NCBI GenBank assembly: GCA_002727535.1
Contig: PBXH01000036.1
Span: 3,869-14,424 of the forward strand
From: Gammaproteobacteria bacterium
Lineage (GTDB): Bacteria; Pseudomonadota; Gammaproteobacteria; Magnimaribacterales; TMED112
DNA: 10,556 nucleotides
Direction of reading: 5' to 3'
Shown: positions 545 through 10,536 of the stretch, in pieces
Layout: each line of letters starts with the position of its first letter
How positions within the stretch are numbered: the first letter of the stretch is position 1
The notes under the pieces: generated by a model
What the model was told of the DNA's origin: nothing
The model's input: only the letters and a program-made list of their open reading frames with translations
The model's database searches: none
Program-made: the position numbers and the translations under genes

Positions 545-622
545 TGGCGATCCGGAAGGGACTCGAACCCTCGACCTCCTGCGTGACAGGCAGGCATTCT
601 AACCAAACTGAACTACCGGACC
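545..622 (-). tRNA. tRNA-Asp(GTC), CCA encoded
   Basis: The minus strand folds as a complete cloverleaf. The acceptor stem GGTCCGG (622-616) pairs with CCGGATC (555-549), with one G-U wobble at the second pair. The anticodon arm CCTGC / CTGTCAC / GCAGG carries anticodon GTC (587-585), and the T arm contains GGTTCGAGTCC. The discriminator is G and CCA is encoded (547-545). The gene is 78 nt including CCA, one base longer than the E. coli tRNA-Asp because of an extra base in the D loop. It lies 11 nt upstream of a membrane-protein gene on the same strand. The bases just before its 5' end (623-633) match the 3' end of tRNA-Val at the other end of the window. Confidence 0.97.
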
Positions 623-633
623 GCGAGTTGTAG
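623..633 (+). repeat. Direct repeat, left copy: tRNA-Val 3'-end remnant (candidate attachment half-site)
   Basis: GCGAGTTGTAG at this position is identical, in the same orientation, to 10464-10474, which is the acceptor and T-stem 3' part of tRNA-Val. If one base is skipped the match extends by three more (ATT), giving 14 of 15. This copy abuts the first base of tRNA-Asp. A GC-rich 11-mer is unlikely to recur by chance exactly at a tRNA boundary in such AT-rich intergenic DNA. Duplicated tRNA 3' ends are the classic mark left by site-specific integration at a tRNA gene. The remnant lacks the discriminator A and CCA of tRNA-Val, and no integrase is nearby, so it may instead be a relic of tRNA-cluster rearrangement. 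Confidence 0.6.
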
Positions 634-662
634 ATTTTGGTACAAATGTTGAATTAATACAA
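634..662 (-). promoter_or_regulatory. Candidate promoter of tRNA-Asp
   Basis: On the minus strand a -35 like TTGTAT (662-657) and a -10 like CAAAAT (639-634) are separated by exactly 17 bases. This would start transcription near 627, about five bases before mature tRNA-Asp. Both hexamers lie inside the bracketed block, beyond the tRNA-Val-like repeat. If that block is an insertion, it supplied tRNA-Asp with a new promoter. The hexamers each match consensus at four positions, so this is only a moderate call. Confidence 0.4.
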
Positions 663-681
663 CTATTTTCTTTTTATTTGT

Positions 682-696
682 TGAGAATCATTCTCA
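682..696. promoter_or_regulatory. Fur box upstream of proteorhodopsin
   Basis: TGAGAATCATTCTCA is a perfect 7-1-7 inverted repeat. It differs at only two symmetric positions from the Fur core TGATAATnATTATCA, and the GAGAAT...ATTCTC variant is a familiar one in gammaproteobacterial Fur sites. It sits 8 bases upstream of the -35 of the proteorhodopsin promoter, centred near -52 from the inferred transcription start. Fur normally represses when loaded with iron. A site upstream of the -35 could still repress, or could mediate another response. It is also about 20 bases from the -35 of the divergent tRNA-Asp promoter, though iron control of a tRNA is the less likely reading. Confidence 0.75.
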
Positions 697-704
697 TTTA
701 AAAG

Positions 705-733
705 TTGAATTTTGGGCTTTTGGGCAATAAAAT
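705..733 (+). promoter_or_regulatory. Sigma-70-type promoter of proteorhodopsin
   Basis: TTGAAT (705-710) and TAAAAT (728-733) are spaced by 17 bases, close to the consensus in sequence and spacing. Transcription would start near 740, giving a leader of roughly 35 bases that is AT-rich (a run of ATTA repeats) and ends in the ribosome binding site AGGAG (765-769), five bases before the ATG. Confidence 0.7.
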
Positions 734-774
734 ATGCCTAATCTAATTAATTAATTAAATAGAGAGGAGAAATA

Positions 775-1473
775 ATGGAAATTACATTAGCAAATGATTT
801 CACTGCCTTTTCTTTTTGGGTCGCTACAGCAGTAATGTTTATGGGCGCCGCTTTTTTCTTTATGGAAAGAAGCACTGTTAATAAAGAATGGCAGACTTCG
901 CTTACAGTCGCGTGTCTTGTATGTTTAGTTGCTTTTTGGCACTACCTATACATGAGAACGGGATACATGGCCAGTGGTGAATCACCAACTGAGCTTAGAT
1001 ATGTAGATTGGCTTATAACAGTCCCTCTACAGATTGTAGAATTTTACTTAATATGCGCAGCAGTATCTGCTGTAAGTTTAAGTGTATTTTGGAAGTTACT
1101 AGCAGGTTCGCTTGTTATGCTCGTCGGAGGATACATGGGTGAAGCAGGTCATTTAGACGCAACTGTTGGTTTTGTTATAGGTATGGTTGGATGGGCTTAT
1201 GTCATCTGGCTGATCTGGGCAGGTGATGCAGCGCAAGCAGCAGACGGTGCTAAGAACGAAAACCTATCAATGGCTTTCAATGGTATTAAATGGATTGTAA
1301 CTGTTGGTTGGATAATCTATCCAATAGGTTACTTCATGGGTTACATGATGGATGGAGTAGACGTAAGTGGTCTAAACTCCCTATATAACCTTGCTGATGT
1401 TGTTAACAAATTCTTATTTGGATTGGTTATCTGGCATGCAGCTATGAGAGACTCTGGTGTAGCTAAAGGCTAA
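775..1473 (+). CDS. Blue-type proteorhodopsin, light-driven proton pump
   Basis: This is a 232-residue, seven-helix microbial rhodopsin of the inner membrane that exports protons when lit. Numbered against green proteorhodopsin (offset 19), the key residues are all present: His56 (H75), proton acceptor Asp78 (D97, in RYVDW), proton donor Glu89 (E108, in VEFYLI) and retinal-binding Lys212 (K231, in NLADVVNKFLFG). Gln86 occupies the spectral-tuning site (position 105), predicting blue absorption as in open-ocean variants. Unlike many proteorhodopsins it has no cleavable signal peptide: the ATG has a good AGGAG and an in-frame TAG (760-762) lies just upstream, so the start is secure. It is a single-gene unit with its own promoter, a Fur box and a strong terminator. 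No carotenoid or retinal synthesis genes are in the window, so chromophore must come from elsewhere in the genome or from outside. Confidence 0.97.
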   Translation: MEITLANDFTAFSFWVATAVMFMGAAFFFMERSTVNKEWQTSLTVACLVCLVAFWHYLYMRTGYMASGESPTELRYVDWLITVPLQIVEFYLICAAVSAVSLSVFWKLLAGSLVMLVGGYMGEAGHLDATVGFVIGMVGWAYVIWLIWAGDAAQAADGAKNENLSMAFNGIKWIVTVGWIIYPIGYFMGYMMDGVDVSGLNSLYNLADVVNKFLFGLVIWHAAMRDSGVAKG

Positions 1474-1489
1474 ACCAATTTCTTGAATT

Positions 1490-1519
1490 AAAAAGCCCGC
1501 ATTAGCGGGCTTTTTTTTT
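1490..1519 (+). terminator. Rho-independent terminator of proteorhodopsin
   Basis: A GCCCGC / GCGGGC stem (1495-1500 with 1505-1510) with loop ATTA is preceded by five A and followed by nine T. It begins 17 bases after the proteorhodopsin stop codon. It is strong and compact and should isolate the proteorhodopsin transcript from the next gene. Confidence 0.93.
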
Positions 1520-1527
1520 GCTAAAAT
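1519..1527 (+). promoter_or_regulatory. Candidate extended -10 promoter giving a near-leaderless transcript
   Basis: TGCTAAAAT fits the extended -10 pattern TGnTAnAAT-like. It starts in the last T of the upstream terminator tract and lies 7 bases before the ATG at 1535. No plausible -35 exists, because that region is the terminator hairpin. Transcription from it would begin at or next to the start codon, which fits the lack of any Shine-Dalgarno sequence for the following gene. Read-through of the terminator is the alternative. Confidence 0.4.
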
Positions 1528-1534
1528 TTATTTA

Positions 1535-1918
1535 ATGAATAAAGAATCATTTTTCTTAATATTTGTTGCTTTTGGAGTATTTCCTGTTTCACTAATTTAT
1601 GGTGGCCACCCTGCTATTAGCATGCCTTATTTTTATGGTATTGAGGTCAATACCATAAATCTATCAAATATACTTAGAGCAATTATGGGTTTATATATTG
1701 CTCTATGTGTTTTTTGGGTAATTGGTGCTCGTTACGAAAAATTACGTTTAGCAGCTCTTTGGAGTTTGGTAATTTTTATGATTGGAATAGCTTCAGGAAG
1801 AATATTAAGCCTTGTCCTTGATGGAATGCCTTCATCTCTTTTTATATTTTATACATTTGTTGAGATTATGGCTGCAATAGTTGGTATTAAACTAATAAAC
1901 GACAAACAAAAGGGTTGA
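1535..1918 (+). CDS. DUF4345-like small membrane protein
   Basis: The 127-residue protein has four hydrophobic helices, at about residues 5-22, 46-64, 72-92 and 100-121. The layout NILRAIMGLYIALCVFWVIG, then RLAALWSLVIFMIGIASGR and LDGMPSSLF, matches the pattern I associate with DUF4345: an N-terminal helix, an LRA-G-LY second helix, then a GR-x-LSL-x-LDG-x-PS segment leading into the last helix. The family's role is unknown to me. It begins 15 bases after the proteorhodopsin terminator, with no ribosome binding site, and may be leaderless or read through from proteorhodopsin. It converges on a thioesterase gene 28 bases beyond its stop. No link to rhodopsin function is evident beyond proximity. 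Confidence 0.7.
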   Translation: MNKESFFLIFVAFGVFPVSLIYGGHPAISMPYFYGIEVNTINLSNILRAIMGLYIALCVFWVIGARYEKLRLAALWSLVIFMIGIASGRILSLVLDGMPSSLFIFYTFVEIMAAIVGIKLINDKQKG

Positions 1919-1939
1919 AATGGCCTATGATCTCAAAAC

Positions 1940-1970
1940 AGGTTAATTAAGATTTATCTTTGTTAAACCT
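1940..1970. terminator. Possible hairpin between convergent genes
   Basis: AGGTTAA (1940-1946) pairs with TTAAACCT (1963-1970) with one bulged base, and inside it AAGA pairs with TCTT around a TTTA loop. The structure overlaps the stop codon of the minus-strand thioesterase and lies just past the DUF4345-like gene, so it could end transcription in both directions. It is AT-rich and lacks a clear T tract, so it is weak. Confidence 0.3.
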
Positions 1971-2384
1971 TTCTGTTCTGTTGAAAATAAAAATTGTATG
2001 CATCAGAGTTGCAGCTAATTTATCGTCTTTATCAAATATACTCCCCTGAACAGTGGCAATTGTTTTTCCCTTTTTTATTAGATTTGCTGTGGCAGTGACT
2101 GTGCTCTTAAAAAGAGGTCTATGGTGATGCGAATGCAAATTTACTGAACTTGGGTATATTGTTCCTTTTGATTCTATCACTAGAAGTAAGGCGGTTACGT
2201 CATCTAACATTGATGTCATCATTCCACCCTGAACTGATCCATCAGGATTTAGGGTTTCATCAGGAAATTGTGCTTCAAGTTTTAGAAACCCATCTTTATA
2301 TTCTAAAAGTTTAAATTGGAATATTTTTCCGGTACCACTTTTTTCTTTATGAAAGGCTAAAGCTTTTTCTATGTGTTCTTTCAT
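1947..2384 (-). CDS. PaaI/4HBT-type hotdog-fold thioesterase
   Basis: The 145-residue protein has the length and motif order of PaaI-like acyl-CoA thioesterases, soluble cytosolic enzymes that release acyl or aryl groups from coenzyme A. The core motif NPDGSVQGGMMTSMLDD (residues 46-62) corresponds to the family's N-x-x-G-x-x-HGG-x6-LAD segment, with Asp61 exactly seven residues after the second Gly, as expected for the catalytic Asp. The His of HGG is Gln52 here, a substitution that occurs in the superfamily. The later VNLHSHHHRP strand and the GSIFDKDDKLAATL strand complete the hotdog sheet. The substrate cannot be inferred. It is a lone minus-strand gene that shares an 81-bp divergent spacer with the glucokinase unit; no strong ribosome binding site is seen. 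Confidence 0.8.
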   Translation of the reverse strand: MKEHIEKALAFHKEKSGTGKIFQFKLLEYKDGFLKLEAQFPDETLNPDGSVQGGMMTSMLDDVTALLLVIESKGTIYPSSVNLHSHHHRPLFKSTVTATANLIKKGKTIATVQGSIFDKDDKLAATLMHTIFIFNRTERFNKDKS

Positions 2385-2434
2385 AGCGATTAATAAAATT
2401 AAATCTTATTTTAGAGTAAATCAAACTTTTTAGT

Positions 2435-2440
2435 TATACT
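2435..2440 (+). promoter_or_regulatory. Candidate -10 of the glucokinase-symporter-glucosidase unit
   Basis: TATACT is a near-perfect -10, placing the start about 20 bases before the glucokinase ATG. No good -35 is found at 16 to 18 bases upstream (best TTAGAG, 2411-2416). A GAGTA (2414-2418) and TACTC (2437-2441) pair flanks this stretch and could be a weak operator. The poor -35 would suit activator dependence. Confidence 0.4.
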
Positions 2441-2465
2441 CATCTCTCTTTAAAATTTAATTCTC

Positions 2466-3386
2466 ATGAAAACACTATTACTTGATCTTGGCGGCACACA
2501 TCTTCGAGCAGGATTTGCAAAAGATCATGAAAAAGAAATTTTAGATATGAAGAAAATTAAAATTAATGAGATTGGATCCATAGAGTCATCAATAGAAGAT
2601 CTTGTTAGCCAAATAGAGCCCCAAGAAATAATTTTTTCTGCTGCTGGACCAAGAAAAGAAAATACAATAAAAATGACTAACAGAAATTTTAATATTGATG
2701 GTGATGAGCTTTCAAAAAAATTTGGGATCCAATGCCATCTTCTAAATGATTGGGAATCAATAGGGTACTGTATACCTACTTTAGCAAGTCACGAAATTAT
2801 TGAGATTAAAGAAGATTTAAATAAAAAGAATGAGTCTTTAATGGCTATAGGTCCAGGCACAGGTTTGGGGTGTGTGCAAATAAAGTATAAAAAAGATATC
2901 CCTAATATATTTTCAACTGAAGTTGGAAATACAAGACAATATAATTCTTTTCTAAATGAGCATTTCAAGTTATCAGATACAGACGAATTTCATTATCTTG
3001 AACATTACATCTCTGGCTCTGGTCTAAAAAAAATATATTTTATTAAAACTCAAAAAGATATTAGTCCTGAAGAAATATTAGATAGATATGGCAATGATGA
3101 AGCTTGCACTAATGTTGTTGATGATTTTATAGAAGCTTTTTATAAAATCTTGAGTGACCTAGCATTAACATTCTTGATCAAGGGAAAAATTTATTTAGTG
3201 GGAGGATTGATGAGAAGTTTATGTAATTTAAAATCGATGAAAGAAAAAACTGAAAATTTTATAAATCATCCTTCAGATGAGCATAATAAAATCTTAAAAA
3301 ATTGTGGAATTTACCTAGTAAAAAAAGAACATACACCTTTGTATGGAAACTTAAACTATGCAAGAATAAGGACCATTAATGAATAG
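2466..3386 (+). CDS. glk: Glucokinase-family sugar kinase
   Basis: The 306-residue cytosolic kinase would phosphorylate glucose with ATP to glucose-6-phosphate. The order of motifs follows E. coli-type Glk: N-terminal phosphate loop DLGGTHLRAG (7-16), sugar-binding and catalytic-base segment LLNDWESIGY (Asn94, catalytic Asp95), second nucleotide motif GPGTGLG (129-135), a Glu152 segment, EHYISGSGLKKIY (179-191, with Glu179 matching E. coli Glu187) and a C-terminal VGGLMRSL adenosine motif. The EGGH motif is altered to EVGN, so Asn155 replaces a sugar-contacting His, which may shift affinity or substrate. It is first in a tight unit: its last codons overlap the symporter start by eight bases. 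No Shine-Dalgarno is visible. With the downstream transporter and GH3 enzyme, glucose from beta-glucosides is the natural substrate. Confidence 0.85.
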   Translation: MKTLLLDLGGTHLRAGFAKDHEKEILDMKKIKINEIGSIESSIEDLVSQIEPQEIIFSAAGPRKENTIKMTNRNFNIDGDELSKKFGIQCHLLNDWESIGYCIPTLASHEIIEIKEDLNKKNESLMAIGPGTGLGCVQIKYKKDIPNIFSTEVGNTRQYNSFLNEHFKLSDTDEFHYLEHYISGSGLKKIYFIKTQKDISPEEILDRYGNDEACTNVVDDFIEAFYKILSDLALTFLIKGKIYLVGGLMRSLCNLKSMKEKTENFINHPSDEHNKILKNCGIYLVKKEHTPLYGNLNYARIRTINE

Positions 3387-4980
3387 CTTAGATTTTATCA
3401 TTGTAGGCATTTATGCAATTGTATTAATTTTAATTGCAACCTTTATATCTAGATCTAAAGATGGCAAGAAAAAAACCGCTGAAGATTATTTCTTAGCTGG
3501 AAGGTCTCTTCCTTGGTGGGCTATAGGTACTTCACTTATTGCAGCAAATATTGCGGCTGATCAAATAATTGGCATGAATGGAGATGGTTATGCGATGGGG
3601 ATAGCAATTGCCACTTATGAATGGACTGCTGCAATTGCTCTTATAGTAATTGCAAAATTTTTATTACCAGTCTATTTGAAACAAAAGGTCTTCACTATGC
3701 CTCAACTTCTTTCACAGAGATATAACAATAGAGTGAGTATGCTTTTAGCTGTCTTGATGCTAATCATGTATGTGATGGTGATAATGCCAACTATTCTTTG
3801 GTTAGGTTCTAAAGCCATCAATAATCTTACTGATCTTGATCTAATTTTAGGCATGATCTTACTGGGAGCTTTATCTCTCGCATATTCATTGTATGGAGGT
3901 CTTAAAGCAGTAGCTTTTACTGATGTAATACAAGTTGCTCTTTTAATATTTGCAGGGTTATATGTTTCTTATGTAGGTTTAAATATAATTTCCGATGGGC
4001 AAGGTGTTATTGCAGGTTTCTCGCAAATGCTTGTTGATTACCCAGAAAAATTTGATGCCCTTCTGTCTTATGTTCCTTCTCAAGAAGATCCAGTTGCTTA
4101 CGATAATTATGTAAAGCTGCCTGGAATTTGGGTGCTGTTTGGAGGTATGTGGGTCGCACATTTTTACTACTGGGGAACTAATCAATACATCACACAAAGA
4201 GCATTAGGCGGTAGAAGTTTAGATGATGCTCAAAACGGGCTTATGTTTGCTGGATTTCTAAAACTATTAATGCCTGTAGTTGTGGTTTTGCCAGGTCTAA
4301 TTGCAGTATCAATTGCACCAAATTTAAGTGATAGAGCAGATGCATACCCTACAATGCTACAGTTACTCCCTAATGGTATTTTAGGCTTAACCTTTGCGGC
4401 ATTAGTTGCAGCTATTGTTTCTTCATTAGCATCCTTAACAAATAGCATGAGTACTATTTTTACAATGGATGTATATAAAAATATTAAAGGTGAGGTTCAG
4501 GATTCAAAATTAGTAAATATTGGAAGAATTGCAGGAGTCGTTGGATTAATAATTTCGATCATTGTTGCTCCAATATTTTTGGGGAGCCTAAAATCAGCCT
4601 TTCAATATGTTCAAGAATACATGGGATTATTTAGTCCTGTAATATTGTTTGTTTTTCTGTCGGCAATATTTGTGCCTAAATCAAATTCAACTTCAGTATT
4701 GTGGGGTTCTTTCGTAGCGCTTATTTTAGGTGTTCTAATGAAAATATATGTAGCAAATACTACTGAATCTATTATTGAACCATTTATGCATCAAATGCTA
4801 ATTTCATTTATTGCTGCATTTTTAGTTAGTGGTCTTTTATCCTCCAACACTAAGGATAAGAAAGTGTTTGCAATTAAAAGTAAAGATTTTGAAACATCAA
4901 AAATTTTTAATGTTGGATCTTCATTTATCGTAGTTGCAATTATTGCAATTTATCTGTTCTTTGATGGTAGTTTTGTCTAA
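3379..4980 (+). CDS. SGLT-type sodium/sugar symporter (SSS family)
   Basis: The 533-residue, about 14-helix inner-membrane protein would import glucose or galactose with sodium. TM1 reads SLPWWAIGTSLIAANIAADQ; Ala55, Asn57, Ile58, Asp61 and Gln62 line up with Vibrio vSGLT Ala62, Asn64, Ile65, Glu68 and Gln69 (sodium site and sugar-pocket residues). In TM8, Ala345, Ser348 and Ser349 reproduce the spacing of vSGLT Ala361, Ser364, Ser365, the Na2 site, within VSSLASLTNSMSTIFTMDVY. This strongly favours a sugar carrier over proline or acetate members of the family. The start is set by TAAGGA (3367-3372) six bases before ATG inside the end of the kinase gene. Only three bases separate its stop from the GH3 start, so all three genes should be one transcript. 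Confidence 0.93.
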   Translation: MNSLDFIIVGIYAIVLILIATFISRSKDGKKKTAEDYFLAGRSLPWWAIGTSLIAANIAADQIIGMNGDGYAMGIAIATYEWTAAIALIVIAKFLLPVYLKQKVFTMPQLLSQRYNNRVSMLLAVLMLIMYVMVIMPTILWLGSKAINNLTDLDLILGMILLGALSLAYSLYGGLKAVAFTDVIQVALLIFAGLYVSYVGLNIISDGQGVIAGFSQMLVDYPEKFDALLSYVPSQEDPVAYDNYVKLPGIWVLFGGMWVAHFYYWGTNQYITQRALGGRSLDDAQNGLMFAGFLKLLMPVVVVLPGLIAVSIAPNLSDRADAYPTMLQLLPNGILGLTFAALVAAIVSSLASLTNSMSTIFTMDVYKNIKGEVQDSKLVNIGRIAGVVGLIISIIVAPIFLGSLKSAFQYVQEYMGLFSPVILFVFLSAIFVPKSNSTSVLWGSFVALILGVLMKIYVANTTESIIEPFMHQMLISFIAAFLVSGLLSSNTKDKKVFAIKSKDFETSKIFNVGSSFIVVAIIAIYLFFDGSFV

Positions 4981-4983
4981 AAG

Positions 4984-6828
4984 ATGAAAAAAGTTTTAAA
5001 TTTAGTTTTTCTTTCAATGTTCTGCTTTAGTGCTGACTGGAGTAGAGAGAATTCTTGCCCTGCTGGTAATGAACCTTTTGTACAATCAATTCTTTCTTCA
5101 ATGACCGTTGAAGAAAAAGTTGGTCAAGTAGTTATGGCTGATATAAGTACGATTTCTCCAAGTGATTTAAATCAATTCCCAATTGGAGGTATTTTAAATG
5201 GAGGGAATAGCTCGCCAAACAACAATCAAAAAGCTTCTCCAGATGAATGGAAAAAACTTGCTCAAGATTTTTACGATGCTTCTGTTTCAGTAGGTGGTGC
5301 CAATATACCAATTCTATGGGGGACGGATGCTGTTCATGGACATTCAAATGTTTTCGGAGCAACAATTTTTCCACATAACATAGGACTTGGCGCAACAAAC
5401 AACCCTAAACTATTAGAAAAAATTGGTGAAGTCGTAGCTAAAGAAGTTTTAGCTACTGGTATCTATTGGACTTTTGCTCCAACAATTGCAGTGCCCCAAG
5501 ACTATAAATGGGGAAGAACTTATGAAGGATTTTCTCAAGATCCAGAAATAGTCGGCTCATTAGGTAAAGCATTTATTGAAGGTCTTCAAGGAACAGGAAG
5601 CAATTTTTTAGACAACACAAAAATCCTAGGAACAGCAAAACATTTCTTAGGAGATGGAGGCACACATATGGGTGTTGATCAAGGCGATACGAGAATTGAT
5701 GAAGAATCTTTTAAGAATATTCATGGAAAACCTTATTTTGATGCACTAGATGCATGCATTCAAACTGTCATGGCTAGTTATAACTCATGGAATGGTTTAG
5801 AAGTTCACGGACATAAATATTTATTAAGTGATGTTTTAAAAGGTCAAATGCAATTTGATGGATTTGTTGTTGGTGACTGGAATGGGCATGATGAAGTTGA
5901 AAACTGCACGACCGAAAGTTGTGCTGCTGCATTAAATGCTGGTGTAGATATGTTTATGGCGCCTGAAACATGGAAAGAGATTTATCAAAACACTCTTGCA
6001 CAAGTTAATTCAGGAGAAATTTCTATGCAAAGACTTGATGATGCAGTAAGAAGAATCCTGATAGTAAAAGAAAGATTAGGCTTGTTTTCAAATACCCAAC
6101 CAAAAAACTCTGCATTTAACCAAGTTGGTACAGCTGACCATAAGGCTGTTGCAAGAAAGGCTGTTAGAGAGTCTATGGTTCTCTTAAAAAATGAGAATGT
6201 TTTACCATTGGATAGTAATCTAAAAGTTTTAGTTGTTGGTCATGCTGCTGATTCATTAAAAATTCAAACAGGTGGATGGACTCTAAATTGGCAAGGAACA
6301 GAAAATACTAATGAAGACTTTCCTAAATCAATAAGCCTCTATGAAGCAATAAAAGAAATAGTTGGGAGCAATAATGTTAGACACGTTCAAGATATAATTT
6401 TTGATACCACGACATATGATGAAGAAGTTAAACCAAATTATGCTGACTATGACGTAGCTCTGGTGGTTTTTGGTGAAGAGCCATATGCAGAATGGCAGGG
6501 TGACAGAGGTTCTCTTGGTTTCACTCAGTCAAAACAAATTAGACAATTAGAGCTTCTTAAAAAAGCTGATATTCCAACTGTTTCAATATTCTTTTCAGGA
6601 AGACCAATGTGGGTCTCGAAAGAAATTGAATTATCTGATGCATTTGTTGTGGCTTGGTTACCTGGAACAGAATCTAGAGGGATGACAGATGTTATTTTTG
6701 CTAAAGAAGATGGAAATATAAACTTTAATTTTAAAGGGAAGCTGCCCTATTATTGGCCTAACGATCCTTTTGATGAAATCACTAAAGATAATGCAAAGTA
6801 TCAGCTAGGTTTTGGTCTAGTTTATTAG
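4984..6828 (+). CDS. Secreted GH3 beta-glucosidase / exo-glucanase
   Basis: The 614-residue protein starts with a signal peptide (MKK, hydrophobic 5-15, likely cleavage after FSA at about 17), so it acts in the periplasm or at the surface. It shows the two-domain plan of barley ExoI and bacterial ExoP enzymes: a TIM barrel with WGTDAVHG (substrate-binding Asp115), RTYEGFSQDP (178-187), KHFLGDGG (Lys219, His220) and the nucleophile in GFVVGDW (Asp298), then an alpha/beta sandwich holding the acid/base loop GEEPYAEWQGDRG (Glu503). Both catalytic residues are present and the length is full. Likely activity is stepwise removal of glucose from beta-1,3/1,4-gluco-oligosaccharides; linkage cannot be told by eye. 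It is last in the kinase-symporter unit, has no Shine-Dalgarno and is probably translationally coupled. Its TAG overlaps the stop of the convergent RraA-family gene by four bases. Confidence 0.93.
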   Translation: MKKVLNLVFLSMFCFSADWSRENSCPAGNEPFVQSILSSMTVEEKVGQVVMADISTISPSDLNQFPIGGILNGGNSSPNNNQKASPDEWKKLAQDFYDASVSVGGANIPILWGTDAVHGHSNVFGATIFPHNIGLGATNNPKLLEKIGEVVAKEVLATGIYWTFAPTIAVPQDYKWGRTYEGFSQDPEIVGSLGKAFIEGLQGTGSNFLDNTKILGTAKHFLGDGGTHMGVDQGDTRIDEESFKNIHGKPYFDALDACIQTVMASYNSWNGLEVHGHKYLLSDVLKGQMQFDGFVVGDWNGHDEVENCTTESCAAALNAGVDMFMAPETWKEIYQNTLAQVNSGEISMQRLDDAVRRILIVKERLGLFSNTQPKNSAFNQVGTADHKAVARKAVRESMVLLKNENVLPLDSNLKVLVVGHAADSLKIQTGGWTLNWQGTENTNEDFPKSISLYEAIKEIVGSNNVRHVQDIIFDTTTYDEEVKPNYADYDVALVVFGEEPYAEWQGDRGSLGFTQSKQIRQLELLKKADIPTVSIFFSGRPMWVSKEIELSDAFVVAWLPGTESRGMTDVIFAKEDGNINFNFKGKLPYYWPNDPFDEITKDNAKYQLGFGLVY

Positions 6829-7316
6829 CTTCCTTCTAGATCTAGTCTTTTTTCTGAAATCAGAATTCCTGTAAGGTCTCCATAAGCCCAAAATCCTGAC
6901 TTAATTTGAACTTCTCCAATCCTAAAACAAACATTGTAAGAACCTTGATTATTTTTACCACTTTTTTTTGGGCATGAACCTAATGCAAATACAGGAAATT
7001 CAATTGAACTCAGTTCTTCAACATCCCTTACTCTGCCATTAACAATAATAGCGCCCCAAGAATTTGTTTTAGCAATTGAAACAAGATTGTCCCCTATAAG
7101 ACCAACATTATCTGAAGCATTGCCCTCAATAAATAAAACTCTACCGAGTCCATCCTTTTGTAAAATGCTTTTGGCTAATGAATTATCATCTGGACATTCC
7201 ACGGTAATTATTTCTCCACAAAAATAATTTTTAGCGCCAAAAGATCTGAAATCTAATAAAAAGGGTGTTTCTGGGAACTTGTCAGAAATATCTGCGGTAT
7301 TAACCAAATAAGACAT
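6825..7316 (-). CDS. rraA: RraA-family protein (RNase E regulator or RraA-like aldolase)
   Basis: The 163-residue protein aligns along its whole length with E. coli RraA (161 residues): FGAKNYFCGEIITVECPDDNSL, GRVLFIEG and the C-terminal YGDLTGILISEKRLDLE all have close counterparts. E. coli RraA binds RNase E and inhibits mRNA decay. The fold is shared with class II HMG/CHA aldolases and oxaloacetate decarboxylases, whose metal and pyruvate site is a D-x20-R-D motif. Here Asp76, then exactly 20 residues, then Arg97-Asp98 are present, while E. coli RraA has Gln after the Arg, so catalytic activity is conceivable. The gene sits alone on the minus strand between GH3 and the receptor, overlapping GH3's stop. 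There is no clear ribosome binding site. Function, RNase regulation or aldolase, is undecided. Confidence 0.85.
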   Translation of the reverse strand: MSYLVNTADISDKFPETPFLLDFRSFGAKNYFCGEIITVECPDDNSLAKSILQKDGLGRVLFIEGNASDNVGLIGDNLVSIAKTNSWGAIIVNGRVRDVEELSSIEFPVFALGSCPKKSGKNNQGSYNVCFRIGEVQIKSGFWAYGDLTGILISEKRLDLEGS

Positions 7317-7369
7317 ATTTTAATTCTTACATAAAATTAAGTAATTGGAATCAAAAAAAATTAATAATT

Positions 7370-7399
7370 AATTAATGTGACAAATCTGTAACATTAATT
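7370..7399. promoter_or_regulatory. 30-bp palindromic operator upstream of the TonB-dependent receptor
   Basis: Arms AATTAATGTGACA and TGTAACATTAATT are inverted repeats around a four-base centre (AATC), with 12 of 13 pairs matching; the only mismatch is G7379 against A7390. Each arm holds a TGTnACA box. It is centred near 7384.5, about -60 from the inferred receptor transcription start and about 10 bases before the -35 region. It does not fit the CRP pattern TGTGA-N6-TCACA, nor Fur. It probably binds a dimeric regulator of the receptor gene, identity unknown. It is also about 60 bases upstream of the divergent RraA-family gene. Confidence 0.65.
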
Positions 7400-7408
7400 T
7401 AATTAATA

Positions 7409-7429
7409 CTCTTTTCTTTATAAAAAGAG
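7409..7429. repeat. Inverted repeat over the -35 region of the receptor promoter
   Basis: CTCTTTT (7409-7415) and AAAAGAG (7423-7429) are perfect inverted arms around CTTTATA. The element covers the place where a -35 should lie and ends just before the -10. It may be a second regulator site, or simply reflect AT-rich composition. Confidence 0.3.
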
Positions 7430-7431
7430 AG

Positions 7432-7437
7432 TACAAT
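7432..7437 (+). promoter_or_regulatory. Candidate -10 of the TonB-dependent receptor gene
   Basis: TACAAT is a good -10 and would start transcription near 7444, a short leader before AGGAG (7451-7455) and the ATG at 7461. At 16 to 18 bases upstream only CT-rich sequence is found, not a -35. The strong palindrome further up suggests an activator compensates. Confidence 0.5.
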
Positions 7438-7460
7438 TTGGATACTCTTGAGGAGAGATT

Positions 7461-10406
7461 ATGAATTCTAAAAAAATATTTGCCCTAATCGGGTTTATTA
7501 CGTTAATTTCAAACTTTGCTTTTTCGCAAGAAGAAGTATCGATAAACGATGATGAAATTGAAGAAGTTGTTGTTGTTGGTATAAAGAAAAGTCTGCAAGA
7601 TGCTATTGATATCAAAAGAAGTAATGTTGGTGTTGTTGATGCAATTACAGCAGAAGATTTCGGAAAATTTCCTGATAATAACTTAGCTGAATCTTTAGCC
7701 AGAGTGGTTGGAATAGGTATCGATAGAAACAATGTAGAAGGTGAAAGAGTTGCTGTTAGAGGTTTCGGTCCTGAATTCAACTTAGTTACTCTTAATGGTA
7801 GACAAATGCCTACTGTTCCAGGCCAATATCAAGGTGGAAGATCTTTTAATTTCGGTGATATTTCTTCTCATGGAATTTCAGCTGTAGAAGTTTATAAATC
7901 TACAGATAGCTCACTACCTTCTGGTGGAATAGGTTCAACCATTAATATCGTTACTACAAAACCATTAGAAATGGATGGCAGAATGCTAAGTTACTCTGTC
8001 AATATGGTTGAAGATACAACCAGTACCGAAAGTCGAACTTTTGAGACAAATTTTGTATATGCTGAGAATTTTGGAAATCTAGGTTTTTCAATTTCTGCTT
8101 CTTGGCAAGACAGAAATAATAGAGAGGAAGGTACTCGTGAATCTAATTGGATTACATTGCCTTTAGATGATCCTAATAGAGTAGATTTCTCAAACCCTAA
8201 CATAACAAACAATAATCAAAGAGCAGATGGAAATACATTCTATCAAGAACCTACAGCATATCAGTTTAAGGATAATGATCGTTTTAGATTCAATCACCAA
8301 GCTACATTGCAATATGCATTTAGCGAAAAACTTGTTGCGACATTAGATTACACAGTTTCTGAAGTTGATTTCAGTTCAAATGGTCAAATGTTTGGTTCTT
8401 GGTTAGGTGGCTGGACTACATTATCAGGAACAATTAACAGTAATGGAGCTTTTACTGATGTAGTAGTCGGTGATAGAGCTTATGATCACCAATTCATTTG
8501 GGGTGACACTGAAAGTAGAAATGAGTCCACTGGTTTAAATTTTGCTTGGGATTTTTCTGAAGCATTATCATTTGAATTAGATATTCATGATTCAAGTGCT
8601 GAAAAAGATGGTACTGAGCTACCAAATGAAATGGGCTTTACGACTCCTCAAGGAACAGTTACACACACAAATGGTGGTCCTGATGGCATAAATTCATTTG
8701 TTTATGATTTTGACATAACTGCTAATGATTTTAGCCATACAGGTCTTTATTACAGAGATGCTTTTAAATCTAATATGATGGAGCAGATTCAGTTTAAAGG
8801 ATCATGGTCAAACCTTGGAGACGGCGCACTTAGATCTCTAGATTTTGGCATGTCACAAGCTGATTCAAAATTTACAGATGTTAGAGCTGAGCTGAATACA
8901 CCATTAGCACCAGCAGTAGCGGCAGATGCAGCACTGTTTACAAAAACATCTTTAGGTGGTTTTATGGATGGCTTCAATCTGAGTAATGCGGGGTATTACT
9001 TTGCAATTGACCCTACTCTGGCAAAACGCGCATGGGTTAACAATGTAGGAGCATTTAGTGCTGGCGATATTGATACACATGATAGAGTTGAAGAAGAACT
9101 TACTTCATATTTCATTCAAGGTAATTTTGAATTTACGGTTAACAACAATCCATTAAATGTTGTAGCAGGTATTAGAGTTGAAGAAACTCAAACAATATCA
9201 ACTTCACTAGAAGATACTCCAACAAATATCCGCTGGGATATGATTGAAGGCTTAACTTATATTACTGGTGGCATTGTTGATGCTCCTGTTGAAGCCAGCA
9301 ACGATGTTGTGCTTCCTCAAATAGCTGCAGCTTATGAATTTGAAGAAGACAAAGTCTTTAGAATGTCTTATGGCGAATCAATGGCAAGGCCATCCCTAAA
9401 AGATTTAAGATCTTCATTGCAATTTGGAAACAGAGATTTCTTTGTTCCTACTGCTACAGGTGGAAATCCAAACCTTGAGCCATTAATGTCAACAAACTTT
9501 GATATGGCTTATGAGTGGTATTATGCAGAAGGAAGCTATTTATCAGTAAATTATTTCAATAAGCAAATAGACGGCTTCATAAGTACCGAAATTACTGAAG
9601 GAGATCTTTATGGTCTTAGGAACCCAGCATTTGGAGAAATTGGTTTATATGCACAAGCTTGTGTAGCTGCATGGGATGCAGCTGGAAGGCCTGATCCTGG
9701 TTTTCCAGGTGATGCTGGAGCTACAGGACATTGTGTTTCACAACAAGCATTGTGGGCTCAGTCATGGATGAATCTATACCAACATATGGGATGGGTTGCT
9801 GTAGCAATGTCTAGAGGAATTGATGTATCTGCAGGTTTCCCATGGGGTGCATGTGATTATGATGGCTGGTGGAGATGTGACCCTGGTTACTTAGATGCAA
9901 CAGCAGATGATCCTTTGGCTATGTTTGAGATATCAAGACCTGGAAACCTAGAAAGTGGTGAAGTAGATGGTTTTGAATTTGTTCTTCAACATCTATTTGG
10001 AGATACAGGGTTCGGAGCCACCTTCAATGGGACATTAATTTCTGGAGGTGATGTCGATATTGACACTACAGTAATTGGAGAGCAATTTATTCTTCCAGGA
10101 TTAGGCGATAGTGCAAATGTTTCAGTTTTTTATGAAGATGAAAAATTTACTTCAAGGCTAGCACTTAATCATAGAGGCGATACTATTGTTGGTTTTGGTA
10201 ACTACGATCAACCGCTGTATGTCCAAGAAAGAAATCAATTAGATTTAACTTTAGCTTATAGACCAAGAGAAAATACTGAAATATTTTTCTATGGTCAAAA
10301 CATAAATGATGAAAATACTAGACTTTATGCACGCCATAAGGAAATGCTTTTCTTAGCACAAGACCATGGTCCAATTTATCGTCTAGGTGTTAGAGTAAAG
10401 TTCTAA
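7461..10406 (+). CDS. TonB-dependent outer-membrane receptor, probable oligosaccharide importer
   Basis: The 981-residue protein has a signal peptide (residues 1-22, cleavage after AFS), a TonB box IEEVVVVG (33-40), a plug domain (about 45-165, with FPDNNLAESLARVVGI and VAVRGFGPEFNLVTLNGRQ) and a 22-strand-type barrel ending YRLGVRVKF with terminal Phe. The plug wording and GGNPNLEPLMSTNFDMAYEWY fit the large proteobacterial receptor class often tied to carbohydrate uptake, rather than typical siderophore receptors. The barrel includes an unusual segment at about 734-810 with four Cys (734, 758, 798, 806) and many Trp, probably an extracellular loop. The start is supported by AGGAG five bases upstream. 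There is no SusD-like partner. It lies beyond the GH3-symporter-kinase genes and likely imports the glucan oligomers they process; the substrate is inferred from context. Confidence 0.93.
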   Translation: MNSKKIFALIGFITLISNFAFSQEEVSINDDEIEEVVVVGIKKSLQDAIDIKRSNVGVVDAITAEDFGKFPDNNLAESLARVVGIGIDRNNVEGERVAVRGFGPEFNLVTLNGRQMPTVPGQYQGGRSFNFGDISSHGISAVEVYKSTDSSLPSGGIGSTINIVTTKPLEMDGRMLSYSVNMVEDTTSTESRTFETNFVYAENFGNLGFSISASWQDRNNREEGTRESNWITLPLDDPNRVDFSNPNITNNNQRADGNTFYQEPTAYQFKDNDRFRFNHQATLQYAFSEKLVATLDYTVSEVDFSSNGQMFGSWLGGWTTLSGTINSNGAFTDVVVGDRAYDHQFIWGDTESRNESTGLNFAWDFSEALSFELDIHDSSAEKDGTELPNEMGFTTPQGTVTHTNGGPDGINSFVYDFDITANDFSHTGLYYRDAFKSNMMEQIQFKGSWSNLGDGALRSLDFGMSQADSKFTDVRAELNTPLAPAVAADAALFTKTSLGGFMDGFNLSNAGYYFAIDPTLAKRAWVNNVGAFSAGDIDTHDRVEEELTSYFIQGNFEFTVNNNPLNVVAGIRVEETQTISTSLEDTPTNIRWDMIEGLTYITGGIVDAPVEASNDVVLPQIAAAYEFEEDKVFRMSYGESMARPSLKDLRSSLQFGNRDFFVPTATGGNPNLEPLMSTNFDMAYEWYYAEGSYLSVNYFNKQIDGFISTEITEGDLYGLRNPAFGEIGLYAQACVAAWDAAGRPDPGFPGDAGATGHCVSQQALWAQSWMNLYQHMGWVAVAMSRGIDVSAGFPWGACDYDGWWRCDPGYLDATADDPLAMFEISRPGNLESGEVDGFEFVLQHLFGDTGFGATFNGTLISGGDVDIDTTVIGEQFILPGLGDSANVSVFYEDEKFTSRLALNHRGDTIVGFGNYDQPLYVQERNQLDLTLAYRPRENTEIFFYGQNINDENTRLYARHKEMLFLAQDHGPIYRLGVRVKF

Positions 10407-10419
10407 TTTATTTTTATTG

Positions 10420-10454
10420 AAAAAAAAGAGGGGGATTTTCCTCCTCTTTTTTTT
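10420..10454. terminator. Bidirectional rho-independent terminator (receptor and tRNA-Val)
   Basis: GAGGGGG pairs with CCTCCTC (one G-T wobble) around loop ATTTT, flanked by eight A on the left and eight T on the right. Because both flanks are homopolymeric it works in both directions: 13 bases after the receptor stop on the plus strand, and 5 bases beyond the CCA end of tRNA-Val on the minus strand. Confidence 0.9.
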
Positions 10455-10459
10455 GTGAA

Positions 10460-10536
10460 TGGTGCGAGTTGTAGGATTCGAACCTACGACCCCCTGCGTG
10501 TAAAGCAGGTGCTCTAACCAACTGAGCTAAACTCGC
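10460..10536 (-). tRNA. tRNA-Val(TAC), CCA encoded
   Basis: The minus strand folds as a full cloverleaf of 77 nt with CCA. The acceptor stem GCGAGTT (10536-10530) pairs perfectly with AACTCGC (10470-10464); the discriminator is A and CCA is encoded (10462-10460). The anticodon arm CCTGC / TTTACAC / GCAGG carries anticodon TAC (10502-10500), and the T arm contains GGTTCGAATCC. A bidirectional terminator follows at once. Its 3' end is the source of the direct repeat found beside tRNA-Asp. Confidence 0.97.
10464..10474 (+). repeat. Direct repeat, right copy: 3' end of tRNA-Val (candidate attachment site)
   Basis: GCGAGTTGTAG lies within tRNA-Val, covering the 3' acceptor strand and part of the T stem, and recurs exactly at 623-633 in the same orientation, 9841 bases away start to start. 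The 3' acceptor and T-stem part of a tRNA is the standard target of tyrosine integrases. Here the tRNA is intact and the partner copy is the remnant. Confidence 0.6.

Follow-up and report, generated by a model that had tools for sequence, protein, structure and literature searches.

We analyzed a 10,556-nucleotide stretch of DNA from a gammaproteobacterium (the window; positions 3869 to 14424 of contig C30), in which a proteorhodopsin gene and a cassette of predicted sugar use genes lie between a tRNA-Asp and a tRNA-Val gene (Table 1). The interval between these two tRNA genes, with a small membrane protein gene beyond tRNA-Asp and xseA beyond tRNA-Val, is referred to here as the slot. Both tRNA genes are read from the minus strand, as an initial annotation of the window had stated. 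That annotation also named proteorhodopsin, glucan use genes, an RraA-family gene, and a receptor in between, all of which were recovered, but its gene list lacked the DUF4345 protein gene and the thioesterase-fold gene. The window genome (G000) is an assembly of 714,531 bp in 53 contigs that is 76% complete. We treat its genus as SAR86; the named matches closest to the window symporter (71 to 78% identity) belong to SAR86 cluster or Gammaproteobacteria bacteria, and the remaining ones (≤40%) come mostly from Saprospiraceae, with the exception of one 58% fragment that is itself from SAR86.

Table 1. Features of the window, by position
Feature	Position	Strand	Remarks
Conserved small membrane protein gene, 142 aa	105..533	-	After tRNA-Asp, outer slot marker; no Pfam match
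tRNA-Asp(GTC)	545..622	-	Left slot wall; ARAGORN, Rfam
11-mer GCGAGTTGTAG	623..633	-	Probable start/leader region of tRNA-Asp; 0 to 4 mismatches in 16 genus genomes, plus upstream blocks
Perfect 15-bp inverted repeat, TGAGAAT-C-ATTCTCA	682..696		Between tRNA-Asp and proteorhodopsin
Proteorhodopsin gene, Q at colour-tuning site	775..1473	+	PF01036; slot gene in 15/15 relatives
DUF4345 protein gene	1535..1918	+	PF14248; 3/16 genus loci (window, G003, G019 only)
Thioesterase-fold gene	1947..2384	-	PF03061; normally abuts tRNA-Val; 16/16 genus loci, window included
Species-specific insert, ~8.07 kb	2385..10457		Glucokinase, symporter, GH3, RraA, TonB receptor
Glucokinase gene, first of cassette	2466..3386	+	PF02685; 42 to 48% identical to genus copies at usual site
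Sodium:solute symporter gene	3379..4980	+	PF00474
GH3 glycosidase gene, 614 aa	4984..6828	+	PF00933, PF01915
RraA-family gene	6825..7316	-	PF03737; place and orientation relative to GH3 as in relatives' cassette
TonB-dependent receptor gene	7461..10406	+	PF00593, PF07715; unlike genus-cassette receptor
A-run, GC-rich hairpin, T-run (predicted two-way terminator)	10420..10454		Between receptor and tRNA-Val; read from sequence
tRNA-Val(TAC)	10460..10536 (10458..10536 with AA)	-	Right slot wall; AA also in empty site; C51 starts with same stretch

Our genus set comprised 21 genomes, in which the membrane protein gene was found in 17, xseA in 18, and rhodopsin in 16; G001, G002, G004, G016, and G018 gave no rhodopsin match and do not enter the following count. 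Each of the 15 relatives with rhodopsin showed the order tRNA-Asp, rhodopsin, tRNA-Val, and the two tRNA genes were 1215 to 1815 bp apart. The thioesterase gene likewise lay beside tRNA-Val in these relatives. The initial annotation had taken everything between the two tRNAs for a single 9.8-kb inserted block, a claim that these gene orders contradict.

What is specific to the window species is the shorter insert of Table 1. The sister species are G003 and G019, with which G000 was joined in the xseA tree (support 99) and whose thioesterases are 95 to 96% identical to that of the window. Both have the empty site CAT-GATCTAAA-TGG, with 8 bp from the thioesterase start codon to the CCA end of tRNA-Val. 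Both borders of the insert could thus be read directly: it lies between the thioesterase gene and the CCA end, its right border being 2 bp from CCA. The insert abuts a tRNA 3' end and close relatives have the empty site, as is the case for tRNA-targeted islands. No duplicated tRNA 3' end was found at its far border, and the flanks of the two borders share no word of 11 bases or more, their best common word being a 10-mer away from both borders. As the initial annotation had noted, no integrase is visible: neither an integrase nor a recombinase was found among the 13 proteins of C30 and 14 of the 17 listed open reading frames (ORFs) of C51, the contig that continues beyond tRNA-Val, the other three overlapping larger ORFs. 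Of the features of a tycheposon, the tRNA is present at the border but no tyrosine recombinase was found in the scanned proteins. On sequence features, the hairpin between the receptor gene and tRNA-Val is likely a two-way terminator.

Contig C30 stops 20 bp past tRNA-Val, which is why the window ends there. Its final 99 bp are identical to the initial 99 bp of C51, which then runs into xseA. Since G003 and G019 have the same 20 bp upstream of tRNA-Val and xseA adjoining, C30 and C51 belong together. The overlap begins with AATGG, and the base preceding it is G in C30 but A in G003 and G019; the fork between the two contigs therefore sits exactly where filled and empty sites diverge. Such a fork fits a sample that also contained a strain, or a sister species, with the empty site, although contigs may break for other causes.

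The 11-mer GCGAGTTGTAG beside tRNA-Asp recurs exactly within tRNA-Val (10464-10474), and the match extends to 14 of 15 bases if one base is skipped, both as initially annotated. It is also infrequent in the genome, with 3 occurrences in the 714,531-bp assembly versus 0.15 expected (both strands, base composition of C30 and C51); two of the three represent a single tRNA-Val, encountered twice via the 99-bp contig overlap. Identical 11-mers form 52 directly oriented pairs in the window, and in four of these, including the GCGAGTTGTAG pair, the members are more than 9 kb apart, so that as a bare repeat the 11-mer is unremarkable. As a match between the tRNA-Asp leader and tRNA-Val it is unusual, since among 200,000 base-shuffled 78-nt leaders only 121 shared any 11-mer with tRNA-Val on either strand.

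The history of these 11 bases was followed in the 16 genus genomes with rhodopsin. They abut tRNA-Asp without change in five (the window genome, G003, G019, G009, and G011), while the other 11 loci have one mismatch (two loci), two (six loci), three (two loci), or four (one locus). The four relatives with the exact 11-mer have no cassette cargo there. At 12 loci from three other families, tandem tRNA loci included, 1 to 6 of the 11 bases abutting tRNA-Asp matched, and the 70 bases upstream of tRNA-Asp held nothing nearer to the 11-mer than 4 mismatches. Two blocks upstream of tRNA-Asp are conserved across the genus loci; it is this conservation that makes them resemble a promoter. A search for a sigma-70 promoter of tRNA-Asp yielded one plus-strand site (705-733) and nothing else, which does not exceed the yield from shuffled sequences. 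Judged by its conservation, the 11-mer belongs to the tRNA-Asp leader in this genus, is older than the cassette, and does not mark a border of the insert. Its proposed role as a trace of insertion was therefore ruled out: it occurs without cargo in four relatives, drifts elsewhere, and is separated by about 1.75 kb from where the insert begins on the left.

The cassette has a counterpart elsewhere in the genus. At what we call its usual site, G013, G007, G008, G005, and G009 carry genes for glucokinase, symporter, GH3, and RraA in the same order as the window, flanked by GH13 (alpha-amylase family) and, at the opposite end, by a receptor, with GH16 past the receptor in the four whose contig continues (families were checked on the G009, G000, and G013 copies). 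The distance from GH3 to the membrane protein gene was 34 to 59 kb in the six genomes with both on one contig. In the window genome, the usual site was seen to consist of GH13 followed directly by GH16, with exactly the core and the receptor missing. G003 and G019 have kept the symporter and RraA at this site but not glucokinase, GH3, receptor, or GH16; GH3 was not found anywhere in G003, G019, G011, or G020, whose completeness is 74 to 83%. The clustering of a glycosidase with dedicated uptake genes (GH3, sodium symporter, TonB receptor, and glucokinase), together with the neighboring GH13-type and GH16 genes in relatives, suggests that the cassette genes serve beta-glucan use.

The receptor type was found in 1 of the 21 genus genomes, that of the window (E ≤ 1e-60), and a relative with 67% identity over 992 aligned residues occurs in G112, from another SAR86 family, beside GH3, glucokinase, and symporter genes. 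The receptor was therefore probably acquired from beyond the genus. The rest of the cassette may have been either transferred or relocated. The window symporter is 75 to 78% identical to full-length cassette copies of other species and 71% identical to those of G003 and G019; in a tree, its placement was not firm. Matches of 90% identity for GH3 (P0002) and 88% for the symporter (P0122) were also found. The window GH3 lacks the C-terminal galactose-binding-like domain PF18559 that is present in the two genus copies scanned (G009 and G005), and it is about 190 residues shorter than most relatives among the matches listed. In the GH3 tree, which took in 8 of the 14 fetched loci of another family, it grouped with the genus copies rather than with those eight, and it fell outside the other 15 genus copies (Shimodaira-Hasegawa-like approximate likelihood ratio test [SH-aLRT] 94; a quick tree with a long branch).

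Two side observations concern the usual cassette site. In G003 (L197, about 6233-7592), the GH13 gene beside it is in several pieces, one with a stop; in this sister species, the locus is apparently in decay. G005 has two glucokinase-symporter-GH3-RraA cassettes on two contigs (L118 and L119); its contamination is 4%, and a mixed bin is possible.

Outside the genus, the same interval holds other contents. The initial annotation had proposed that relatives with adjacent tRNA-Val and tRNA-Asp genes followed by a membrane protein gene might exist, as well as relatives with different cargo, and both were found. In G034, G179, and G151, three genomes of three genera, the two tRNA genes form a tandem 48 to 59 bp apart, bordered by xseA and EamA genes at the Val end and by genes for the membrane protein and HSP90 at the Asp end. 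Homologs of the membrane protein gene adjoin tRNA-Asp in another SAR86 family too. The rhodopsin of G034 and G151, the two of these three genomes covered by the search, is on another contig. We suggest that the tandem may be the ancestral state. An exact-pattern search for tandems with a spacer of ≤30 bp returned none in 199 SAR86 genomes; it was run without a positive control and is too strict for tandems of 48 to 59 bp. In a third SAR86 family (G023, G026, and G032; L203, L204, and L207), a gene for a PhoD-like phosphatase lies between the tRNAs, so that the slot may be tied to phosphorus use there. A fourth family was represented by three genomes, none of which had a tRNA-Val within the 14 to 16 kb fetched around tRNA-Asp.

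Rhodopsin was found in 37 of the 42 genomes searched outside the genus, and a locus was fetched for 30 of these 37. In 7 of the 30 loci, both tRNAs surrounded the gene, and its orientation relative to the tRNAs was the same in the window genus and in another family. In a tree of 46 rhodopsins, the slot genes fell into three clades; the location of the gene required 5 changes, at least 4 of which are forced. Overall, one tRNA-bounded place is empty in some genomes and in others holds PhoD, rhodopsin of one of three clades, or rhodopsin with the cassette, and this combination of a fixed place and varied cargo is that of a replacement island.

The clearest change of cargo was seen in genus g15, in which 13 genomes, chosen by a membrane protein gene match or by the best rhodopsin scores and hence not a random sample, have rhodopsin beside tRNA-Asp. 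On the opposite side, tRNA-Val was called in 12 of them, and the contig of the remaining one (G186) ends in a damaged tRNA-Val match. Two types of rhodopsin were directly apparent: nine are 79 to 84% and four are 59 to 60% identical to the rhodopsin of G043 (genus g13), and the split was supported at 100/100. The flanks stay conserved while the rhodopsin type changes, the neighboring HSP90 being 87 to 98% identical to that of G049 (g15) over the aligned part. At the motif position that we take to be the colour-tuning residue, the nine have Q and the four have L; all 16 rhodopsins of the window genus, including that of the window, have Q. According to PMC10807816, blue or green absorption depends on whether this residue is Q or L, the two going together respectively. 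We infer that the Q-type rhodopsins absorb blue and the L-type green light. In a tree of the flanks rooted on G043, the four L-type slots lay inside the nine Q-type ones, on a supported branch. Between G043 and G049, the rhodopsins are 84% identical and the HSP90 proteins 64%.

Two observations concern the tRNA-Val gene itself. It starts with GCGAGTT in the window genus, whereas the tRNA that other SAR86 families have in this position starts with GGGTGAT or GGGCGAT (L199, L200, L202, and L203); from these sequences, the gene seems to have been replaced or strongly remodelled between them. Furthermore, contig C6 of G001 at its start (L029) and contig C28 of G004 at its end (L028) break inside tRNA-Val, neither having a rhodopsin match, and the tRNA-Val junction may be variable in these genomes too.

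We also noticed that the inverted repeat between tRNA-Asp and proteorhodopsin, which to us resembles an iron-regulator (Fur) box, has one or two bases changed in G003 and G019, and that none comparable was present at the other 13 genus loci scanned. It is a possible operator of proteorhodopsin in the clade of the window, G003, and G019.

We favor, with a probability of roughly 0.66, the explanation that SAR86 has reused the tRNA-Val to tRNA-Asp interval for cargo, as an exchange slot bounded by the two tRNAs, and that a cassette was added to it in the window species. The slot is empty in some lineages, contains a PhoD-like phosphatase gene in one family, and contains proteorhodopsin in others. 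Three separate rhodopsin clades are represented in it today, with both Q-type and L-type genes seen in one genus amid well-conserved flanks. In the window genus, it would already have held proteorhodopsin and the thioesterase gene before the cassette came. The window species would then have gained about 8 kb, made up of the glucokinase-symporter-GH3-RraA core of the genus beta-glucan locus and a different TonB receptor, and at least the receptor may have been acquired from another SAR86 lineage. Cargo would be exchanged through homologous recombination within these flanks, without a dedicated integrase. A bolder version, in which whole proteorhodopsin genes of the blue and green types, and at times sugar cassettes, are swapped in the slot between species by flank recombination with no mobile element of their own, is tentative, and we give it somewhat less than an even chance.

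Several points weigh against this explanation. The within-species empty site is deduced from the sister species and a single contig fork, the second branch of which was not found. In the flank tree of g15, 2 of the 11 inner branches are well supported, and one change of type was enough in 13% of the bootstrap trees. Among the 30 fetched rhodopsin loci of other genera, 4 are near tRNA-Gly and 19 lack any tRNA in the nearest 1.5 kb or so, so the slot is one rhodopsin home of several, and the count of location changes on the rhodopsin tree cannot separate gains from losses. The cassette has a GC content of 29 to 37%, which is not foreign, and composition gave no signal of foreign origin. Finally, the symporter tree did not reject vertical descent with G003 and G019 (approximately unbiased test, p = 0.216).

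The last two points also favor another origin for the cassette, which leaves the history of the rhodopsin slot untouched: the species' own beta-glucan core could have moved within the genome to tRNA-Val without any enzyme gene passing between species, the receptor being swapped later. The core is indeed missing from the usual site of G000 with its gene order kept at tRNA-Val, and the window GH3 groups with genus copies. However, the usual-site symporter (71%) and RraA (42 to 44%) of the sister species are less similar to those of the window than the copies of more distant species are (75 to 78% and 46 to 56%). The placement of the G000 GH3 outside the other genus copies and the absence of the receptor from every other genus genome also speak against relocation. 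We regard it as a serious contender, though less likely than not. A misjoin at tRNA-Val during assembly or binning is a concern of a different kind, given an incomplete, fragmented genome whose contig stops so close to tRNA-Val. Yet both borders are within one contig, with the thioesterase on the left and tRNA-Val and the xseA-side 20 bp on the right, and the protein cluster to which the window GH3 belongs represents 7 contigs with lengths up to 25 kb (flanks unseen). An artefact is, in our view, very improbable.

For the slot as a whole, ordinary descent has to be considered. A single ancient insertion of rhodopsin between the tRNAs, followed by losses or moves and by divergence, with no exchange in place, would agree with the uniform orientation of the gene and with all counted location changes being losses. 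It accounts poorly for the two types found between conserved flanks in g15, where even one change means a replacement, and for G043 and G049, whose rhodopsins are more similar than their HSP90 proteins, the reverse of what descent alone would give. We consider it unlikely. The initial annotation had instead proposed that a Val-Asp pair was split by one 9.8-kb island at the tRNA-Val 3' end, which left a partial tRNA-Val copy by tRNA-Asp. The 11-mer at both places and the tandems in three genera agree with this, and a species-specific block does abut the tRNA-Val 3' end; the proposed mechanism and extent did not survive. Rhodopsin and thioesterase are in the slot genus-wide, the 11-mer occurs without cargo, drifts, and is not at the left border of the insert, it includes neither ACCA nor the tandem spacer, and the scanned C30 and C51 proteins included no integrase. 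Little credence is left for such an island.

The exchange slot that we favor has likenesses among known systems. Integrase-borne islands have their attachment sites in tRNA 3' ends, and the insert likewise abuts a tRNA CCA end, but here there was no integrase in the scanned proteins and no duplicated tRNA end at the left border. The replacement flexible genomic islands of Methylophilaceae, as described in PMC10872708, similarly place varied cargo between two tRNA walls in streamlined aquatic bacteria, and recombination is named there as the route of transfer. Their walls are tRNA-Ser and tRNA-Arg and their reported role is phage defence, whereas the small SAR86 slot contains, in most cases, a single proteorhodopsin gene. 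Tycheposons, as presented in the same text, share a tRNA border and metabolic cargo with the insert but have a tyrosine recombinase, which is unmatched in the proteins scanned here. Proteorhodopsin is reported to move between lineages in PMC10807816 and PMC1821060, which present lineage-restricted tuning along with repeated mutation in SAR11, unlike the whole genes of two types in one fixed place of SAR86 g15. A hypervariable region of a SAR86 single cell (PMC3569297) is alike in its variable gene content, but it holds outer membrane modification genes, and the paper mentions neither a slot between tRNAs nor an exchange of rhodopsin. The laminarin loci known from marine gammaproteobacteria, including one genome of SAR86, combine glycosidases and transporters for algal glucan as the cassette does; in PMC10108472 most of them have GH17 fused to a major facilitator superfamily transporter, while in the cassette glucokinase and a sodium symporter accompany GH3 and RraA, and GH16 stays behind at the other site. 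In the literature surveyed by title and start of abstract, a rhodopsin slot between tRNA-Val and tRNA-Asp was not described; subscription papers, including the 2012 SAR86 genome paper, are mostly outside this coverage.

To our knowledge, there is no settled account of how streamlined ocean bacteria without obvious mobile elements would exchange proteorhodopsin. A slot in which two types of rhodopsin are found at one fixed place, between conserved flanks, provides a concrete locus at which such exchange can be addressed in long-read ocean data, including how frequently the type changes, how far recombination spans, and whether the type goes with depth or water colour. Moreover, one species lacks a catabolic core where the genus usually has it and carries this core beside the phototrophy gene. 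If the proposed exchange is true, both the colour of light used and the carbon diet of these bacteria could change without a mobile element of their own.

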